A DNA stretch of 64,000 bases from NCBI RefSeq assembly GCF_022539665.2, contig NC_081331.1, positions 5,490,501-5,554,500 on the forward strand. Direction: 5' to 3'. The position numbers and the translations under genes are program-made. Position 1 is the stretch's first letter. Each line of letters begins with the position of its first letter. The stretch comes from Daphnia carinata (lineage: Eukaryota; Arthropoda; Branchiopoda; Diplostraca; Daphniidae). Shown here piece after piece: positions 35,413-47,316 of the stretch. The notes below the pieces were generated by a model that was not told where the DNA came from, did not search any database, and saw only the letters and a list, made by a program, of their open reading frames with translations.

Positions 35413-38400
35413 ATGGAACGCGTGAAAATCGAAAAGGAAACTGGTGCGGAAGAAAGGGTTGGTTGATAATTATTCATATTTTTTGGCTTTCATCTAATAC
35501 AGTGCTCTTTGAAAACATATAGATTGTAGAACTTTTGAATTCTGCAGCTACAGATGCTGGTGATCAATCGAGAGTTGATCATCTAATTAAAATTCAAGAA
35601 TTGATCATCCACCAGGAAGCTGGACTCTTGGATAACTTTGTGGATGAAATCACTGCTTTTCAGCATGATCGTTCAGCTGATGTTCGAAAAACTATTGTAG
35701 GTTTCATTGAAGAAGCTTGGTATAAAAATATTAATGTTTCCTAAAATAAAGTAAAATAAATTAGTGTATCGGTTTTACAGTAAAGTAGATCCGGAGTTGC
35801 TTGGTAAAGTCATGCACAGTTTACAGCTTTTATTAGGTGACACATCAATTGCTGTGCAAAAACGTGTAATTCAAGCTTTGACTCAGCTGTATAAAACTAC
35901 TTTGCTATGGCTAGCAAGAGCAAATTCTGTAACTGAGCTTATGGAGAGGACATGGAATATGCTCAGTCAGATGAAATCTCAGATTGCCAAAATGATTGAT
36001 CACGACAATGATGGGTAAACCTTTAAAAATCTAGGCTCCCATAGTGTACTAATCAAATAATCTGGTGGCTGTAGAGTAAGAACGATAGCTGTAAAATTCT
36101 ATGAAATGATTATTGTATCACAAACCTATCCTGAACCAGATAGCGTGCGCAAAGAAAACGAATTTAGTTTAGAAGAGGTACCACTAACACTTAAAGTTGC
36201 CAGACCCAGAAAATTGGAAGAAGAAGCGCAGCTGATGATTGAAGATTTGCTGAAGTTTCATGGCTCCGCACACATAAGCAGTGCAAACCTAATGGCGTGT
36301 ATGGGTTCACTTACTCACATAGCAAAAAGTCGGCCTCAGTTCCTGGATCGCATCGTAACGGCCATGGAAATGCTGCATGCAAACTTACCCCCGACTTTAT
36401 CCAAATCACAAGTGAATTCAGTCCGCAAACACTTGAAATTGCAATTATTGGCAATACTTAAACATCCCGCTTCGTTTGAACGCAGCAGCAACATAAAAAC
36501 TCTTCTTGGGGATTTGGGTGCCACGCCGCAAGAAATCAATAAAGTATGTAGTAATATCATTTTCCTTTTAATGCAATTTTTAGATAAACTTATGTAACAA
36601 TTTTACTTCGAGGTATTGCCTACCGCTGAAGAAATAGCGAAGCATCCAAGACGATCTGAGCGGGCGGAAGATTCCAAAAGCGGTCCAGCAGCTAAACGAA
36701 GAAAGATAGAAGCTGATCCAGTAATTCCAGTTCGCGAGAATACTAAACAGAAAGCTCTTGCTATTACGGAAGAGTTTCTCGTACAACGGCTCACGACAAA
36801 AGGAGCTGTCGATCTCGTAATGGAGACGCTGGTATGCATTTTCGATCCCAATTCCTATTCCACAATCTATAAAGCTTTCTTTTAGCCTGTTTATTTATTT
36901 AAAGTTTTTTTTTTTTTTTTTTTTTTAATATATATATATATATAATCCTTTCGCTGTTGCTAGCCTCACATTACCAGCGGTATGCCTCCACATTTTCCCT
37001 CTATTTATACACCTATCTCGGATGCTGGAACACAAAGCCAAATTCGACACATAGCTCGTCTCATGGCTTCTCAAATGACAAATGCCGGAATTGGACCTGG
37101 AGTTGCAGAAGCCGGTTATGTTCCAAAAATGGTAATTCATATCTCAATATTTTAAAGTAACATGTATGCAGATACTGACTCCTAAAGTTCCCAGGGCAAT
37201 GATTTTGAAGACGAGGATGATGACATGGATGATATCCCTGGTGCAGCTGTAATAACGCCAGGATTTCGAGGTGGGGAAGATCCCGAGTCAGCTAAACCTG
37301 GGGTGGCCTTAATTCAACCTCCAGTACAAATTCGAGCAAGGCAAAGAGCATTAAAACTAGCAGAAATTGCGAAGCCGTTGACGCCACAAATGAACGAATC
37401 CATGGCTCGTTCTGCGCTTCAGCGAGTCTTGAAAGCCGAACGAACTGCCATGCTAGGTGGCGTAGCGGCGAATAGGCAAAAGATTTTGGCCTCACTAGCG
37501 ACCCTTTTTTCGGGAGATTTCAAAGATCGTAAGTTACTTATTTCTACTTTGATGCATGATGAAAATTTATTCATTCTTGGATATGAAAATTCAGTCGTTT
37601 TAGAGTACATTATGGCAGATCCACGCTTGCGAATTGAACTCGCCTTCTCATGGCTCTATGAGGAATATTCTATGGTTATGGGTTTCTGTCGTCAATCGTC
37701 TATTGTAAAAGATGAGTTCCGTCACGCAGCTGTTGACAGTTATACCGACGTGTTTTGCTCTTTAGTGAACGAGTTAAAGAAACAATCCGATTTAAAAGAG
37801 CGAGAAGTGTAAGTATTAGTGTTTGGTCAATGACAAATTCACCGATTTTTCCCATTTTTTAAATAAATTTTTTGTGTTAGGTTACTGAGCCGGTTATTCC
37901 ACGAATCGCCAAACATTCCAGAACAAGGAGTCTCGATATTGCGAACAATGTTATGTGAGGACGCTAAGTTGGTGGATATTTCCATCCAAATTCTTCGCCA
38001 GCTTGTTCACCGTCCATCAAAGCAATTGATCTACCTGAATGTTTTGCTCGAAATCAGTAGCCACGAAAATGAAACTATTCGTTCGGCTGTTCTTTCCTGC
38101 CTGACCGATTTATATGACCGTGGAGCCCTCCGTCGCGTAATTGAGGATTACGCTTTAATGTGCCTCAAGTTTTTGTTGTTAGAGGAACCCCCAGCGCTCC
38201 TCTGCGGGCCTGAAAAGGGCAGAAGTGAAGTGGTCACTACCTGGACCGAAGAGATTATCAAAGCCTGTCTCTATCTGTTCCTTGCCGTGCTTCGTTCCAA
38301 TCACAAGTTGATCCATGAGTGAGTCAAATTCTTCACGTGGCAAACAAAGTTAGTCCTAATGAAATGATTTGGTCTGATTGGTAGACTGGCAGTTGTATAT

Positions 38401-39738: not shown

Positions 39739-39918
39739 CCATTCCTTCGTTGAAGTTAAAACAAGCTCAATGATGATGGATGGCCAGAGCTTGGAATGAA
39801 GAATATTTTGTATTATTTCCTTCTTATAAAAAAAACAAACGTATAATAAAACTTAGCCAAGACAAATGCAATTTTCGGAAGTTTAATTGTAATGCAGTGA
39901 AAGCAGAAAAAATTTTAA

Positions 39919-40150
39919 GCCCGACTAAATAAGCCCGACTTTTCTCGGTCGGGCTTAAATTTTTTTTCTGAAAAAACTGACACTCATCGGAATTGGTTGA
40001 ATATCACAGGGTATACTCAAAATTGAATGCTGATTCCGGGAAAATTGCTGTTTTTAAAATTAAGCAAATCGTTTTTGAAACACACCGAATATTTGACGCA
40101 ATGTTAGCGCGCCAGTACGCTACAGCGCTAGTTCGATGCAGCGGAAATAT
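39919..40150 (+). repeat. Left outer terminal inverted repeat of the foldback element
   Basis: Starts GCCCGACTAAATAAGCCCGA after TTAA. It includes the hairpin AAGCCCGAC...GTCGGGCTT, then GTATACTCAAAATTGAATGC and GCGCGCCAGTACGCTACAGC. The reverse complement of each segment occurs in the same order at 45705-45936. Confidence 0.85.
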
Positions 40151-40440
40151 TCGGTGGGTATATATAGAGAATTAACTATACATCTGAGGTAGATGGCGAT
40201 AGCAGTGAAACGGAAAAAAGGCCGATATATGGCAATCCGTTTTACATAAAAAAAAAAAAAAAAAAAATGGCGGAAAAAAAAAAAAATCGCACTTTTTTCT
40301 CTTTTTTCTACCCGTAGCCATCTATCAGTCGGTTTCGTTATTACAGGCATGTAAGCAATTTTAGTTAATTGTATCCCATTAGCAGTTAATTGAGTAGCGT
40401 GGCTGGAGAACAACGCGTGGCTGGAGGAACAATTGAAAAA

Positions 40441-41423
40441 TGGATAAGATAATAAAACAAAAAAATGGTAAGTATAAACATTATTATATTGGTTTTCAAT
40501 TATTAATTATTGTTTATTAGATCAAATTATGAAGCTGCAGGCCCAGTTATTGGAACAACACAAAATATTAGATAATAAAGCTAAGGATCGTAGGCCTAAC
40601 ACGTAATGATTCTATTTATTTGCTTTTATTCATTCGTGTTTTGTAGCTCAAATTTTGAGTCTTCAAGCTCAGCTAGGGGAAAAGAACAAATTGGAACGGA
40701 ACAGTTTCCAAACAGTGAAGGAGGTTTTTCAAAACTCATCTCTAACTGAGCGTGAGGATGAGTTGGCATTAGGCGAACACAGCCAGGTACCTAAACTTTT
40801 CAAATAAGAATTCAAAATAAGTATAGAATTTTAAAAAACAATTATTTATTGCTTAGTTATTCAGTCCACCACCTGACAGTGTGTTAAATTTAAATTCTGT
40901 TAGTGCTGCACTAAAAGAATCGTTAGTAATAAGCTCATGCAGTGAAGGAACTGAACAATTGTGGGAACGTATTTGGGCCGAAAATGGGTGTGGTACAGAA
41001 ACCCAGAAATGGCACAAGTTCAACATGAAACATGGATTAGGTACTTTTCGGTTTTTTGTCTATCGAAAAAGTATTTTTAATGCTATTATTTTGCATTCAC
41101 AGATTTTAACGGGGGATCAAATCAAGTCTGGAAGTGTTACAGGATGGAAGAGTGAGCCTACAGATGAAAAAACACTGAGAGTGCATTACCGTAAGGTGTG
41201 AGGTAAATTATTAGAGTTATGCAAATTGCCTAATGAGAAGTACCATCTTGTGTTAATGAATCCAGTACAACAGCAATCCTTTATAGTTCTGTCACAGCTA
41301 GAAGCCTCAAATAATTCTGCTTCTCTGTCTAAAGAACAACTTGTCCTTTACGTTCAGAGTGTTGGGGAAACTGGGTACTTAAATGGCCCTAAAGATGTTT
41401 TAATTTTGCTGCTATTGCAGAGA
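40441..41423 (+). CDS. Unrecognised spliced coding unit in the left arm
   Basis: Not recognised. Exons suggested by splice signals: 40441-40468 (MDKIIKQKNG), about 40521-40589 (QIMKLQAQLLEQHKILDN), about 40647-40784 (QILSLQAQLGEKNKLERN...), about 40858-41040 (LNLNSVSAALKES...ENGCGTETQKWHKF) and from about 41103. The second and third exons are related heptad-like coiled-coil segments, apparently an exon duplication. After HYRKV an in-frame TGA (41198-41200 region) interrupts an otherwise continuing frame (GKLLELCKLPNEKYHLVLMN...) that runs to about 41423. Both arms carry the same TGA. It could be an element-encoded protein or a captured host gene fragment; no transposase motif is seen. The 3' end is uncertain. 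Confidence 0.4.
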
Positions 41424-41616
41424 TGAACATCATACATGGACTCTTTAGGTATGAAAGGATTTTTCTTCAAATAATTTTGAATTTATGACGAAGAATTTCT
41501 CCTCCTTTTGCCAACCAGGTCTTATCTACCAAAAAAAATTTTATCCAATAGGAAAGGATTTTCATGTACTGGGAACACAACTATCAACAATGCAACATTC
41601 TACAGGTGCTAGTTTA

Positions 41617-42009
41617 TCATTCAAGAGCCTTATACAATGAAGTTAATCTGCAATTTGTATGTCCTTTCCCAAGCTTCCACCAGAAGTTGAATCTATGAGT
41701 CATGTAAGTTCCATGATCAACAATTGATGTGTTTAACTGTGTTGTTTTTCTTTTCTCAATATAGGTTAATAGTAACATTGGATCTGAAAAGATTCTTGGT
41801 TGGGGCAAGACACTGAATAAATTGTATTGATTGGATGGATGACATGACATTGCTATACTTAATTCGGATTCCCCAGACGGTATTTGATATTTAAAAAATT
41901 GAAGTGCATATCTGGGCTCCCTTCTTTTCTGAAGCCCCGTTTCCCCTTGACTCATAATAAGCCCGTAGGGGGTCATGCCCCTACTGTACGGTATATATAA
42001 AAACAACAT
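41617..42009 (-). CDS. 130-residue ORF of the left arm, antisense to the main unit
   Basis: Open from an ATG (MLFLYIPYSRGMTPYGLIMS) to a stop, identical at protein level to 43480-43872 in the other arm. No family is recognised. It contains FNFWWKLGKGHTNCRLTSLY near the end. It begins inside a GTATATATAAA tract and reads outward. Either a real small gene of the element or an ORF arising by chance and preserved because the arms are nearly identical; no sign of a frame break. Confidence 0.3.
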   Translation of the reverse strand: MLFLYIPYSRGMTPYGLIMSQGETGLQKRREPRYALQFFKYQIPSGESELSIAMSCHPSNQYNLFSVLPQPRIFSDPMLLLTYIEKRKTTQLNTSIVDHGTYMTHRFNFWWKLGKGHTNCRLTSLYKALE

Positions 42010-42179
42010 ATACCGAGGTTTGGAGGGCTCTGGCCGGAAAGGGGACGTGGGGTGCCGCTTCGTCCGATGATGTGTTCACGGAGGGTGACGTGGCTGCCCA
42101 CAAATCCGAACTAAAGGTTAATCGCTCCTGTAAAAATGTTCCAAATCTTCAGCTCTTCTTCCGGCTTCTCTTAGCCAAT

Positions 42180-42237
42180 CACCGGGTAATCTCCCCGGTG
42201 GGTCAACAAGGCAGTGTCTCCCCCTGCCTGGGTTGAC
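42180..42237 (+). other. Two adjacent GC-rich hairpins, left arm
   Basis: CACCGGG pairs with CCCGGTG (42180-42200). Directly after it GTCAAC/AGGCAG pairs with CTGCCT/GTTGAC (42202-42237). The stems are the most GC-rich sequence in the arm. The same pair occurs in the right arm and again at 45353-45410. Confidence 0.6.
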
Positions 42238-42582
42238 GGCAACTTTTGAAAGGGCTATTGTGCCTTTTTAAAGTTGCAAAAATAATTGTAATGTGCAGAG
42301 AATTGTCAATAAATTTTTTTTATAAAATATTTTTTGCAAAATTTGTTTCTTTCATTGTCTTTGTTAGCTGTATTCACACATTACAATTATGAACTTTTTT
42401 TTTTTTTGCTTTGCTTTACTTGTTTTTATCACCTTTGATGGTAAGCATTGTTTCCATTGGTTTATCGTTTATCTGTAAGTATTCAATTTTATTTATTACA
42501 CTCTTTCAATTCTTCAACTTAGATTCAAGGAACAACGTGTAGTATCTGGATATTTTTTGAAGTAATTTTGTATTTTGTTTAC

Positions 42583-42655
42583 TCGTATGGGAACCGATCC
42601 CCAGACAATCAGCGTGCAACGCCGATGCTCTAACATTAAGCCACGAGATATAACT
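42583..42655 (-). other. tRNA-like module 1 in the element spacer
   Basis: On the - strand: CTCGT acceptor half, D-arm-like GGCTTAATGTTAGAGC, an anticodon stem TCGGC/GCTGA with loop GTTGCAC (would read TGC, Ala), and a T-arm-like GGGGATCGGTTCCC, closing with ACGAG. The T loop deviates from the consensus, so it is called tRNA-like and not a gene. Confidence 0.5.
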
Positions 42656-42745
42656 AAATATTTTATTATCGCATATCATATGTTATCGTCTAGGATGTTT
42701 ATGCAGTCTTTCACAATTATATGTTTATCTTTCTATTGCATTTAA

Positions 42746-42815
42746 AAGGTTCATAGCTCTGTGGTAGAGCGTTTAGCTACGACAACTGTTACCCTGGGTT
42801 CAAACCTCAATAGAT
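42746..42815 (+). other. tRNA-like module 2 in the element spacer
   Basis: GTTCATAGCTCTGTGGTAGAGC resembles a D arm and A box. CCTGGGTTCAAACCTC resembles a T arm with the B box GGTTCAAACC. The anticodon stem does not pair convincingly. Degenerate. Confidence 0.4.
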
Positions 42816-42934
42816 GTGTTAAAATGAAGTAGAATTAATGTAGAAGAGTATGTTGCAGAATTGCATTTCATTTTTATTCTAAGTGTAAATGCAAGTCCAC
42901 AAGTGACTAGTAAAAAGACAACTTGACATAACAT

Positions 42935-43003
42935 GATTCATGGCTCATTGGTAGAGCATCGGCGCGGGATGCCGAACATCCAGGGTTCGATCCCTGGATA
43001 ATA
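42935..43003 (+). other. tRNA-like module 3 in the element spacer
   Basis: GGCTCATTGGTAGAGC fits a D arm and the A box TGGCTCATTGG; the anticodon stem TCGGC/GCCGA pairs perfectly but its loop GCGGGAT lacks the usual T before the anticodon. The T arm CCAGGGTTCGATCCCTGG contains a B box. The acceptor stem is poor. Related to module 1 through AGAGCATCGGCG. The internal RNA polymerase III promoter boxes look intact. Confidence 0.55.
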
Positions 43004-43251
43004 ATAGAATGCTTACAGATAAACGATAAACCAATGGAAACAATGCTTACCATCAAAGGTGATAAAAACAAGTAAAGCAAAGCAAAAAAAAAAAAGTTCA
43101 TAATTGTAATGTGTGAATACAGTTAACAAAGACAATGAAAGAAACAAATTTTGCAAAAAATATTTTATAAAAAAAATTTATTGACAATTCTCTGCACATT
43201 ACAATTATTTTTGCAACTTTAAAAGGCACAATAGCCCTTTCAAAAGTTGCC

Positions 43252-43309
43252 GTCAACCCAGGCAGGGGGAGACACTGCCTTGTTGACCCACCGGGGAGAT
43301 TACCCGGTG
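43252..43309 (-). other. Two adjacent GC-rich hairpins, right arm
   Basis: Reverse complement of the hairpin pair at 42180-42237, with all stem pairs kept. Confidence 0.6.
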
Positions 43310-43479
43310 ATTGGCTAAGAGAAGCCGGAAGAAGAGCTGAAGATTTGGAACATTTTTACAGGAGCGATTAACCTTTAGTTCGGATTTGTGGGCAGCCACG
43401 TCACCCTCCGTGAACACATCATCGGACGAAGCGGCACCCCACGTCCCCTTTCCGGCCAGAGCCCTCCAAACCTCGGTAT

Positions 43480-43872
43480 ATGTTGTTTTTATATATACCG
43501 TACAGTAGGGGCATGACCCCCTACGGGCTTATTATGAGTCAAGGGGAAACGGGGCTTCAGAAAAGAAGGGAGCCCAGATATGCACTTCAATTTTTTAAAT
43601 ATCAAATACCGTCTGGGGAATCCGAATTAAGTATAGCAATGTCATGTCATCCATCCAATCAATACAATTTATTCAGTGTCTTGCCCCAACCAAGAATCTT
43701 TTCAGATCCAATGTTACTATTAACCTATATTGAGAAAAGAAAAACAACACAGTTAAACACATCAATTGTTGATCATGGAACTTACATGACTCATAGATTC
43801 AACTTCTGGTGGAAGCTTGGGAAAGGACATACAAATTGCAGATTAACTTCATTGTATAAGGCTCTTGAATGA
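43480..43872 (+). CDS. 130-residue ORF of the right arm
   Basis: Inverted twin of the ORF at 42009-41617 with the same predicted protein. Reads outward from a GTATATATACCG tract near the element centre. Not recognised; low-confidence gene. Confidence 0.3.
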   Translation: MLFLYIPYSRGMTPYGLIMSQGETGLQKRREPRYALQFFKYQIPSGESELSIAMSCHPSNQYNLFSVLPQPRIFSDPMLLLTYIEKRKTTQLNTSIVDHGTYMTHRFNFWWKLGKGHTNCRLTSLYKALE

Positions 43873-44066
43873 TAAACTAGCACCTGTAGAATGTTGCATT
43901 GTTGATAGTTGTGTTCCCAGTACATGAAAATCCTTTCCTATTGGATAAAATTTTTTTTGGTAGATAAGACCTGGTTGGCAAAAAGGAGGAGAAATTCTTC
44001 GTCATAAATTCAAAATTATTTGAAGAAAAATCCTTTCATACCTAAAGAGTCCATGTATGATGTTCA

Positions 44067-45048
44067 TCTCTGCAATAGCAGCAAAATTAAAACATCTTTA
44101 GGGCCATTTAAGTACCCAGTTTCCCCAACACTCTGAACGTAAAGGACAAGTTGTTCTTTAGACAGAGAAGCAGAATTATTTGAGGCTTCTAGCTGTGACA
44201 GAACTATAAAGGATTGCTGTTGTACTGGATTCATTAACACAAGATGGTACTTCTCATTAGGCAATTTGCATAACTCTAATAATTTACCTCACACCTTACG
44301 GTAATGCACTCTCAGTGTTTTTTCATCTGTAGGCTCACTCTTCCATCCTGTAACACTTCCAGACTTGATTTGATCCCCCGTTAAAATCTGTGAATGCAAA
44401 ATAATAGCATTAAAAATACTTTTTCGATAGACAAAAAACCGAAAAGTACCTAATCCATGTTTCATGTTGAACTTGTGCCATTTCTGGGTTTCTGTACCAC
44501 ACCCATTTTCGGCCCAAATACGTTCCCACAATTGTTCAGTTCCTTCACTGCATGAGCTTATTACTAACGATTCTTTTAGTGCAGCACTAACAGAATTTAA
44601 ATTTAACACACTGTCAGGTGGTGGACTGAATAACTAAGCAATAAATAATTGTTTTTTAAAATTCTATACTTATTTTGAATTCTTATTTGAAAAGTTTAGG
44701 TACCTGGCTGTGTTCGCCTAATGCCAACTCATCCTCACGCTCAGTTAGAGATGAGTTTTGAAAAACCTCCTTCACTGTTTGGAAACTGTTCCATTCCAAT
44801 TTGTTCTTTTCCCCTAGCTGAGCTTGAAGACTCAAAATTTGAGCTACAAAACACGAATGAATAAAAGCAAATAAATAGAATCATTACGTGTTAGGCCTAC
44901 GATCCTTAGCTTTATTATCTAATATTTTGTGTTGTTCCAATAACTGGGCCTGCAGCTTCATAATTTGATCTAATAAACAATAATTAATAATTGAAAACCA
45001 ATATAATAATGTTTATACTTACCATTTTTTTGTTTTATTATCTTATCC
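44067..45048 (-). CDS. Unrecognised spliced coding unit in the right arm
   Basis: Inverted twin of the unit at 40441-41423: the same start exon, two coiled-coil exons, the ENGCGTETQKWHKF exon and the same in-frame TGA after HYRKV. A silent-type change (TTGGAATGG here, TTGGAACGG in the left arm) is among the few differences. Two copies facing away from the centre would make hairpin RNA if read through. Function unknown. Confidence 0.4.
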
Positions 45049-45144
45049 ATTTTTCAATTGTTCCTCCAGCCACGCGTTGTTCTCCAGCCACGCTATCAAT
45101 TAACTGCTAATGGGATACAATTAACTCAAATTGCTTACATGCCT

Positions 45145-45182
45145 GTAATAACGACTACCTAACCTTTAATAATAACTAACCT
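45145..45182. repeat. Insertion with (TTAGG)n-like telomeric units in the right arm
   Basis: ACCTAACC...AACTAACCTAACCTAACCG occupies a place where the left arm has only a few bases. Read on the - strand it is GGTTAGGTTAGGTTAG, units of the arthropod telomere repeat TTAGG. Too short to be a telomere. Confidence 0.6.
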
Positions 45183-45239
45183 AACCTAACCGACTGATAG
45201 ATGGCTACGGGTAGAATAAAGAGAAAAAAGTGCGATTTT

Positions 45240-45450
45240 TTTTTTCCGCCATTTTTTTTTTATGGCAATCCGTTTTACATAAAAAAAAAAAATGGCGGAA
45301 AAAAAAAAAAAAATCGCACTTTTTTCTCTTTTTTCTTTTTCTCTTAGTCAATCACCGGGTAATCTCCCTGGTGGGTCAACAAGGCAGTGTCTCCCCCTGC
45401 CTGGGTTGATGGCAACTATTGAAAGGGCTATTATGCCTTTTTAAAGTTGC
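45240..45450 (+). repeat. Extra partial copy of arm sequence next to the right arm
   Basis: Repeats the TGGCGG/A-rich/ATCGCACTTTTTTC segment and then 42175-42280, including both hairpins and GGGCTATTATGCCTTTTTAA. It lies in the left-arm orientation outside the right arm. One hairpin stem pair has changed to G-T and one end to GTTGAT. It looks like a rearranged or nested second element fragment. Confidence 0.6.
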
Positions 45451-45704
45451 AATATGCATGAAGCAGCGCAATATTTGCAGATCGATAATGGCGGTGGAGG
45501 TAAAAACTACAAAAAATAAACGAGATAACGATACCGTTCAGACGAGGGAAACTCAGATACACGTTGTCAACGTAAAAACAAAGTAAACAATGGGAACCAC
45601 ATGACAAAAAAAGTAACAATAGTTCCATTTCACATGCTAGAGGCTGATGAATCTGCAGCGCCATCTAGTGGAAATACTGTTTGGCCAGGTTTTAAAATAA
45701 GCCC

Positions 45705-45936
45705 GACAAAATAAGCATCGTACTAGCGCTGTAGCGTACTGGCGCGCTAGCATTGCGTCAAATACTCGGTGTATTTCAAAAACAATTAACTTCATAAAAA
45801 AAATAGTAATTTATTCAGAATCAGCATTCAATTTTGAGTATACCCTGTAATATTCAACTAATTCCTATGAGTGTCAGTTTTTTCAGAAAAAAAAAATTAA
45901 GCCCGACCGAGAAAAGTCGGGCTTATTTAGTCGGGC
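45705..45936 (-). repeat. Right outer terminal inverted repeat of the foldback element
   Basis: Reverse complement of the left terminal repeat, ending GTCGGGCTTATTTAGTCGGGC before TTAA. A few substitutions and a small indel in the A/T runs separate it from the left copy. Confidence 0.85.
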
Positions 45937-45965
45937 TTAAAAATTTTTTTCGGTCAGTGTATGTT

Positions 45966-46075
45966 GAGAATTAACTAGAAACGTGACCGGTAGATGGCGA
46001 TAGCAATAAAACACAAAAAAAGGCCAATATTTTTTTTTTATTTTGGGTAAAACGGATTGCCATATGTTTACAATA
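45966..46075 (+). repeat. Direct repeat of element-internal sequence upstream of the PHYH-like gene
   Basis: GAGAATTAACTA, GTAGATGGCGATAGCA and AAAAAGGCC occur in the same order and orientation at 40172-40230, just inside the left terminal repeat. ACGGATTGCCATATG, inverted relative to 40225-40245, follows. This stretch lies outside the right end, immediately before the next gene. Confidence 0.55.
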
Positions 46076-46100: not shown

Positions 46101-47316
46101 ATGTTAAGCCAAACGCAACTACAATTCTATAAAGACAACGGGTATCTTTTGTTGGACGAAGTGTACACGACAGCCGAAATCGACGAATGTTCTTCCGAAT
46201 ATGATGATATTTTCGTACTGAAAAAGAACTCAGAACTTGAGGCCACATGGAAAGGCGATTGGAAGGATGAAGCGTTGGTAATTTTTCTTGGCAGTATTAA
46301 TGGAACAACTTTTAACCAAGTTTCGTCTGATAATTTTAGCCAACACAGCTTTTTTCCGTTCACAATCTCCAAAACCATGCTGCAATTTTTACGAAGATGC
46401 TTTTGAAAGACACATTACTTCAAGCAATTGCTGATATTCTTGGAACTAAAGACATCTTACTCCATCATACAAAAGCTCATGTAAAGCCATCTGGTACAGG
46501 TTCGGCATTTCCCATGCATCAAGTTAGCTTCACATTTTTAAAAGATTCTTTTAACAAACAATTGTTTAACATCTATGCAAGGAATTTATCAATTTCCTTA
46601 AATAGGATTACCAATACTTTCCATACAAGAATGATTCTCTGGTTGCTGTTTTTATACATTTGGATGATACTAATATGGAAAATGGGGGTTTAGCTGTTTA
46701 TCCTGGTTCACACCATCTTGGACCATTAGAAGATAGAGGCAACATTCCAGGTAAATTTGATGTTAAATTTCATAGTGCATTGTCAGATCAAATTAAACTA
46801 CTTAACCTGTATTTGCTGTGCTCCATCAAAATTCTAAGGCTGGCATTATGTCGACCAAGTAAGTAAAAGGCTTTTCCTTATATCATTATATTCTTTTTAC
46901 GAGTTCGTCAGAGTATAATGCAAATTGATGCTTCTTTGGTTCCAAGGATAAGTTCCCGATCGACAAGGCAACGCCCATTAACGCAAAGCGAGGTGAGGAT
47001 TTTCCACAAAAGCCACCAAACGTATTTTATCTTTAACTTACATGATCAAGGGCAAGTCGTTATTTTTTCGTATCTACTTGTACATGGCAGCTATCCCAAC
47101 ACGTCTGATGGCGTTCGACGAATGCTGCTCTTTCAGGTGAAAAGGTCAGTTAAAATGGAAGATGAATTATTTTTACCTTTCGTTACAATTTAGATGATGT
47201 CAGCTCACGACGAAAAACTTAAGGAAACCCATCGTTCCCCATGCCAAGGCATGGTTCTGAGTGGAAGAAATCCGCATGCAGAAGCCAGCATTAAAAAACG
47301 GCATGAAGAGTGCTGA
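46101..47316 (+). CDS. Phytanoyl-CoA dioxygenase (PhyH) family oxygenase
   Basis: Non-haem Fe(II)/2-oxoglutarate dioxygenase of the PhyH family; family members hydroxylate acyl-CoA or small molecules. Seven exons: 46101-46277, 46340-46522, 46606-46750, 46839-46858 (only 20 nt), 46947-46992, 47051-47136, 47194-47316; phases agree and give 259 residues. Seen: N-terminal LSQTQLQFYKDNGYLLLDEV, HTKAHVKPSGTGSAFPMHQ joined to DYQYFPYK (the iron-binding His-x-Asp), VAVFIHLDDTNMENGGLAVY and PGSH, distal iron His in SYLLVHGSYPN, and the 2-oxoglutarate Arg in VRRMLLFQ. No peroxisomal PTS2 is apparent and the C-terminus (KKRHEEC) is not a PTS1. More like invertebrate and bacterial PhyH proteins than human PHYH. 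Its promoter is crowded by the foldback element. Substrate not predictable. Confidence 0.88.

Follow-up and report, generated by a model that had tools for sequence, protein, structure and literature searches.

A foldback element is a dispersed repeated element made up mostly of long inverted repeats. Galileo, a foldback-like element of the P superfamily in Drosophila mojavensis, has inverted repeats of 18-1,250 base pairs (bp) and 7-bp target duplications; its chimeric copies lack matching target duplications, and ectopic recombination and conversion have been proposed for them (PMC3573991). IS3EU elements are described with TA..TA ends and 6-bp duplications, and GingerRoot elements with 6-bp duplications and mostly TA..TA ends (PMC10045372). 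The subject here is a palindrome in a stretch of 64,000 nucleotides of Daphnia carinata (assembly GCF_022539665.2, contig NC_081331.1, positions 5,490,501 to 5,554,500 of the forward strand), hereafter the window, in whose coordinates positions are given. The palindrome is read as belonging to a family of foldback DNA transposons of D. carinata that is young, present in many copies and probably non-autonomous, its units being moved in trans and their arms homogenised by repair; this reading is assigned a probability of roughly three in four.

Architecture and copy number

Self-alignment of the window revealed inverted arms at 40395-42488 and 43003-45095 that are 98-100% complementary in four blocks (1115 bp at 100%, 766 bp at 100%, 141 bp at 99% and 93 bp at 98%), with a core that is 99.95% identical over 1869 aligned columns. 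A preliminary description of the locus had proposed near-identical mirror arms of about 2 kilobases (kb) around a short spacer; the palindrome is real, with arms of ~2.1 kb and a spacer of ~0.5 kb, and the paired hairpins suggested for the arms are present by folding. Unit limits were set by aligning the region with 20 fetched loci, one of which is the window locus. Most copies extend from ~40228 to 45261, with ends TATGGCAATCCGTTTTAC... and its mirror; the left end of the window copy is complete, while its right arm breaks off at ~45260 and the right terminal ~20 bp are absent. With arms of ~2.2 kb in a unit of 5.0 kb, long inverted repeats form most of this dispersed element. The wider limits first proposed, 39919-45936 between TTAA tetranucleotides, have to be withdrawn, as that description was misled by outer inverted repeats which belong to a separate dispersed repeat; the other copies align only over 40228-45261, and the clear target duplications are 6 bp long. 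The parts of the element are:

40228..45260, no strand: foldback element proper, window copy (~5.03 kb), from alignment of other copies over 40228-45261; left end TATGGCAATCCGTTTTACAT at 40228
40228..42492, + strand: left arm, subtype A, from self-alignment and comparison with other copies
43003..45260, - strand: right arm, subtype A, mirroring the left arm with a core identity of 99.95%, from self-alignment and comparison with other copies
42493..43002, no strand: central spacer (~0.5 kb), from comparison of 19 spacers
40228..40244, + strand: terminal motif TATGGCAATCCGTTTTA; the 18-mer is this motif plus one more C

Many other copies are present in the genome. A 1-kb arm probe matched at full length and 98-100% identity at all 40 scored places of 719 candidates, with one further partial match. 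The exact 18-nucleotide end occurs at 803 sites (435 + 368), with none in a reversed control, a count that includes ends of a type C, in which the same 18 nucleotides are followed by different sequence. A 29-nucleotide pattern from a structured block in the arm occurs at 879 sites (441 + 438, with at most two mismatches; reversed control 0). As each element has two arms, these counts correspond to roughly 400 element-equivalents, among which partial ones are counted. Among 100 places listed, 20 consecutive convergent end pairs lie 4.3-5.6 kb apart (counted by eye), and the arm-spacer-arm plan was seen in 19 loci whose flanks almost all differ. These units and the copy counts support the foldback reading and exclude a single-copy duplication, the case that would have told against it.

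Ends, target duplications and the transposase

The copies have common termini, TATGGC...GCCATA, and so belong with elements having TA..TA ends. Flanks were compared in 36 end pairs, 18 from full elements and 18 in which only the ends were read; the window copy (L009) is omitted from these pairs and from the A/B classes. Once extra partial ends are stripped off, identical 6-mers lie directly at both ends in three of the 36 (L018, L046 and L066), where 500 shuffles gave a mean of 0.13 and a maximum of 2. One pair matches exactly at 3 bp (shuffled mean 0.77), and none of the 36 does so at 4, 5, 7, 8 or 9 bp. With one base of play, 6, 6, 4 and 3 pairs match at 3, 4, 5 and 6 bp (shuffled maxima 8, 6, 3 and 2) and none at 7-9 bp. 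Two further 6-bp duplications were seen by eye, in L019 (GTTTTA) and in L042 (GACGAA, outside extra ends), giving a clear duplication in 5/36 pairs. L018 and L019 sit inside other copies of the same foldback family, and the TAATAA duplicated in L018 is part of an arm whose sequence is known from another copy. L066, judged by eye, was inserted at the centre of a short palindrome.

P-superfamily elements make 8-bp target duplications, and piggyBac duplicates TTAA. No pair among the 36 matches at the 7 or 8 bp of P and Galileo, also with one base of play, nor at the 9 bp of Mutator/FB elements such as Tm1. TTAA boundaries of the piggyBac kind were rejected: no pair has a 4-bp match immediately outside its stripped ends, and in the printed flanks TTAA never stands on both sides of an element. 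A TA-only, mariner-like duplication was set aside, since the 6 bp duplicated in L018, L046 and L066 lie outside the terminal TA.

Profile searches matched no Pfam model, and no transposase family, to the open reading frames (ORFs) tested, the 130-amino-acid (aa) antisense ORF included, or to a hand-joined reading of the spliced frame, in line with the earlier remark that no known transposase is visible. Pfam rve (best 150 matches) and rve_3 (51 matches) gave many matches in long open frames; these are presumably integrases of long terminal repeat (LTR) retrotransposons and say little about the transposase of the element. Pfam rva_4, which we take to cover the IS3EU/GingerRoot superfamily, has 26 genome matches at about eleven places on contigs C4, C6, C8 and C9, the window itself lying on C1. 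Most of the rva_4 rows contain an internal stop, and some pairs have identical scores.

The alternative that survives best is a foldback of another superfamily (P/Galileo, Mutator/FB, piggyBac or Tc1/mariner), and it is held to be unlikely, at somewhat under one third of the weight. In the available accounts long-arm foldbacks are known in both P (Galileo) and Mutator (Tm1), so that the form is not bound to a superfamily; no transposase was found to decide the matter, TA at the very ends would also suit a TA-targeting element, and the 6-bp length rests on five pairs. Against this, the exact matches at the ends favour 6 bp (3/36, none at 4, 7, 8 or 9), and TA..TA ends are those of IS3EU and of most GingerRoot families (PMC10045372).

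Several observations weigh against the reading of an IS3EU/GingerRoot-type foldback moved in trans. No clear 6-bp duplication is present in 31/36 end pairs, the matches at 4 bp (6/36) and 5 bp (4/36) with one base of play, among them ACGAC in L062 shifted by one base, leave the duplication length resting on few copies, and half of the pairs (18/36) are known from their ends alone, spaced 4.4-5.6 kb apart in 14 and 9.3-10.7 kb in four, some of the ends being of type C. Extra partial ends such as TATGGCAA adjoin 20/36 pairs, which the reading does not account for; in L046 and L042 they lie inside the duplication and must have moved with the unit or arisen in place. No autonomous partner with the ends of the element was found, the one rva_4 locus checked of about eleven places having none of these ends in the 3.0 kb upstream and 2.6 kb downstream of it, and open frames of up to 241 codons surround matches elsewhere, among the matches listed, so that an intact relative may exist outside the copies read.

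Partial terminal repeats (TATGGCAA, TATGGCAATCCGTTTTA) are stacked outside the ends, sometimes symmetrically, in L046, L042, L050, L052, L068 and 15 others of the 36. The end pairs L066/L067 and L050/L051 are found, by eye, at the centres of short palindromes in other sequence.

Arm types, coding content and structured block

Two arm types, A and B, are distinguished by 88 diagnostic sites. The 37 arms typed (window and 18 elements) comprise 21 A, 12 B and 4 mixed arms, several with clean tract switches; the partial or nested loci L012, L014, L020, L022, L025, L029, L033 and L035-L041 are omitted from the arm comparison. Across 19 elements, the two arms are at least 99.5% identical in seven, are an A/B combination at 92.7-95.0% in nine, and stand at 95.7-97.2% in three. 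The B arm is on one side of the spacer in 8/9 A/B elements and on the opposite side in L027, as exchange between arms would give. Own arms are the closest of all arms compared in L015 (100 vs 99.52%), L028 (99.95 vs 99.68%) and L030 (99.51 vs 97.30%), and the window arms are 99.95% identical to each other vs 99.7% to the nearest other element. The 19 spacers diverge much more than A-type arms do, being 86.4-99.8% identical with a median of 93.7%, and the best match of the window spacer is 93.3%. As pure or mosaic A/B arms are combined with divergent spacers, the sequences indicate gene conversion and recombination, and the earlier suggestion of recent formation or ongoing gene conversion gains support from the mosaics, the pairing of arms within elements and the spacers. 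In the sample, elements lacking a clear duplication occur among same-type and A/B elements alike.

Near-identity of the arms from the youth of the family alone, with no conversion between arms, is improbable. A-type arms from different loci are ~99% alike, which such a reading would explain, and the arm similarity could come in part from recent common descent, as L010 and L011, ~14 kb apart, tie at 100% and the right arm of L019 ties with another locus; this also counts against homogenisation by repair. Youth alone does not account for the A/B mosaics, for the own-arm pairing in L015, L028 and L030, or for near-identical arms flanking spacers whose median difference is 6.3%. At L011 (C3:3735000-3743500) the palindrome continues beyond the element for at least 1.7 kb in both directions with 99.1% identity, giving arms of at least 3.9 kb, which fits arm-templated repair past the element end or an assembly fault there.

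Under the favoured reading, the units would be mobilised in trans by a transposase recognising their common ends, most likely of the IS3EU/GingerRoot type, and several families may use one transposase. After insertion, the two arms would pair as a hairpin or cruciform, and recombination with other copies would also occur; repair would then copy one arm onto the other, leading to homogenised arms, chimeras and loss of target duplications.

Two coding features are present in each arm:

40440..41423, + strand: broken spliced reading frame (MDKIIKQKND...), exon limits by eye, related to D. carinata gene models LOC130...; mirror at ~44067-45050 on the - strand
41617..42009, - strand: 130-aa antisense ORF, probably not a gene, from the ORF list, no Pfam match; mirror at 43480-43872 on the + strand

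The antisense ORF is mirrored as first described, and so is the spliced unit, which has close relatives among spliced NCBI models; that the duplicated coding units are functional genes is not supported. The spliced frame is interrupted in all 19 copies read, in which the longest stop-to-stop ORF is 160 aa. Over seven putative exons together, variable columns show no third-position excess (exon 4, 10, 7 and 10 of 61, 61 and 60; exon 5, 18, 12 and 12; exon 2, 0, 4 and 5). A search limited to proteins of 0.55-1.75 times the query length returned eight NCBI protein clusters (88 member sequences), 8/8 from D. carinata. We read the frame as a shared pseudogene despite this annotation, which makes the eight clusters a likely source of false gene models in D. 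carinata. The element itself is probably non-autonomous, as no frame exceeds 160 codons and no transposase is found in the 19 copies read.

That the spliced unit is a functional gene family which happens to lie in palindromes is very unlikely: the NCBI models and the open frames around some listed matches speak for it, and the interruptions in 19/19 copies and the spread of variable columns over all codon positions speak against it. Least likely of all is a single inverted segmental duplication or a palindrome produced by assembly, which the near-identical arms and the possible assembly fault at L011 might suggest and which is refuted for the family by the copy counts and by the same plan at 19 loci with differing spacers and nearly all different flanks, an exclusion that does not extend to assembly of the window copy.

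The arms also contain a structured block, ~390 bp long:

41889..42290, + strand: conserved structured block, 3'-end-like, from folding and A-B divergence; little diverged from 41938 on
43200..43600, - strand: mirror of the block, from self-alignment
42308..42313, + strand: AATAAA, candidate poly(A) signal just downstream of the block, by eye

The region 41930-42300 folds better than its shuffles on both strands (z -4.1 and -4.8). A-B divergence was measured in 50-bp windows with an A set of 20 arms and a B set of 14, three intermediate arms being omitted (thresholds differ from those of the 21/12/4 typing). Seven windows across 41938-42287 show 0.1-2.5%, and the one at 41888 shows 6.0%. Elsewhere in the core most windows have values of 4-13.6%; those at 40488 (1.2%), 40638 (2.7%) and 41038 (3.1%), and two others near 3.9%, are lower. 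A arms among themselves vary by 0-2.5% in every window from 40388 to 42287. A 301-bp core of the block is 100% identical at all 40 scored places (best 40 of 1018 candidates); the 37 arms contain 18 distinct versions of it, the most frequent being shared by 16 arms, compared with 27 versions and 11 arms for a control stretch of equal length.

A version of the block ~76-77% identical lies beside, not inside, elements at L015:8367-8745 and L019:8527-8880. The L015 version has 95-100% matches at 40 scored of 1055 candidates, 17/40 on C9 at 2.2-5.9 megabases (Mb), 16 of which are spaced 70-260 kb apart within 3.6-5.9 Mb, and a pattern for it finds 83 genome sites. Some foldbacks probably carry this version too, because two site pairs face each other ~1.6 kb apart (C1:4938388/4940005 and C8:4195842/4197472); most other sites are unpaired in the 83-site list, the surroundings having been read for few. 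Homology between the arm gene and sequence upstream of the stand-alone block was rejected (best L015 E 0.009, shuffled controls E 0.0004), and a strong upstream match at L019 proved to be a stray arm piece beside the stand-alone block. The block is found at loci L078-L081 too.

Across three lineages, 252/363 block columns are identical, in runs of up to 33, and 144 lie in runs of at least 12 (shuffled mean 18.7, maximum 76). Compensatory change is seen in only 4/91 predicted pairs of four sequences, and the covariation energy term is slightly unfavourable (+1.44). Conservation is bunched, and an RNA function is not supported by covariation. No Rfam family reached its gathering score in the block, the sub-threshold matches being astro_FSE (13.2 bits, 70 needed) and mir-84 (18.5 bits, 60 needed). 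The low A-B divergence could result from conversion instead of selection. A tentative proposal, given about one quarter of the weight, is that selection acts on the block as a structured RNA not described before, which would serve as a 3'-end or processing module common to several Daphnia mobile or gene families and be needed for spread of the foldbacks; if true, a DNA transposon encoding no working protein would have a cis-acting RNA part, and a functional block would be a new RNA family.

The spacer holds up to three units resembling transfer RNA (tRNA):

42938..42996, + strand: tRNA-like unit, Rfam tRNA at 30.4 bits over 42941-42996 (gathering score 29)
42755..42817, + strand: possible second tRNA-like unit, by eye from the spacer alignment
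42590..42650, - strand: possible third tRNA-like unit, by eye; the least variable of five spacer parts (2.3%)

Two of the three vary less (2.3% and 4.7%) than their surroundings (7.6-8.6%). The Rfam match was not repeated in six other loci, and ARAGORN found no tRNA gene in the window.

The following features surround the window copy:

39907..40139, no strand: left outer repeat, a different dispersed repeat outside the element, from self-alignment and other loci
45715..45948, no strand: right outer repeat, inverted copy of the left one, from self-alignment and other loci
45261..45452, + strand: second fragment, in direct orientation, made up of a further left end and then 127 bp of structured block at 92% identity, from self-alignment
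45965..46067, - strand: terminus of a related element, type C (GGGTAAAACGGATTGCCATA), in which the terminal motif of the element is followed by different sequence, from end comparison

The outer repeats are 89-91% alike and recur at ~72-90%, at varying distance from the element, in several fetched loci. A symplekin-like exon at 37225-37812 neighbours the element, and an ORF at 46101-46406 has a weak phytanoyl-CoA dioxygenase match below the cut-off.

Comparison with known systems

Among the listed titles and abstracts of open-licence literature on foldbacks, Daphnia transposable elements, Galileo, IS3EU and GingerRoot, none describes this family; the kind of element is known, and the family and its structured segment are unrecognised within the searches made. 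With near-identical 5-kb palindromes that by count number in the hundreds, this 108-Mb animal genome offers a natural experiment on arm-to-arm gene conversion, as well as on chromosome rearrangement and palindrome stability.

Tm1 of root-knot nematodes, also foldback-like, has one member containing a gene and some members with a structured histone-hairpin motif, which recalls the arms described here; it differs in its 9-bp duplications, Mutator-type transposase and low copy number (PMC3169594). Tetris, with DAIBAM in Drosophila virilis, is an apparently non-autonomous foldback having terminal parts in common with another short element and probably served by the same enzyme, a sharing comparable to the A/B and C types in Daphnia; however, its arms contain ~220-bp internal tandem repeats, and none were noticed in the Daphnia arms, on which no tandem-repeat program was run (PMC4079207).

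Galileo resembles the Daphnia family in its long foldback-like inverted repeats, its many transposase-less copies and its chimeras with arms of different subfamilies (PMC3573991). It differs in having 7-bp duplications where those of Daphnia, when clear, are 6 bp, and repeats of at most 1,250 bp (from 18 bp) beside arms of ~2.2 kb. Most non-chimeric Galileo copies keep their duplications (PMC3573991), whereas most Daphnia end pairs have no clear one, and no P-type transposase was found in the Daphnia element. The IS3EU/GingerRoot elements differ in that the Daphnia element has no transposase inside or linked to it, and neither the foldback form nor the Daphnia family is described in the available part of that account; they share with it the TA..TA ends, and their 6-bp duplications would agree with those seen in 5/36 Daphnia end pairs (PMC10045372). 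The element is therefore likened to this superfamily without being filed as a member, as a probable trans-mobilised foldback of the IS3EU/GingerRoot type.

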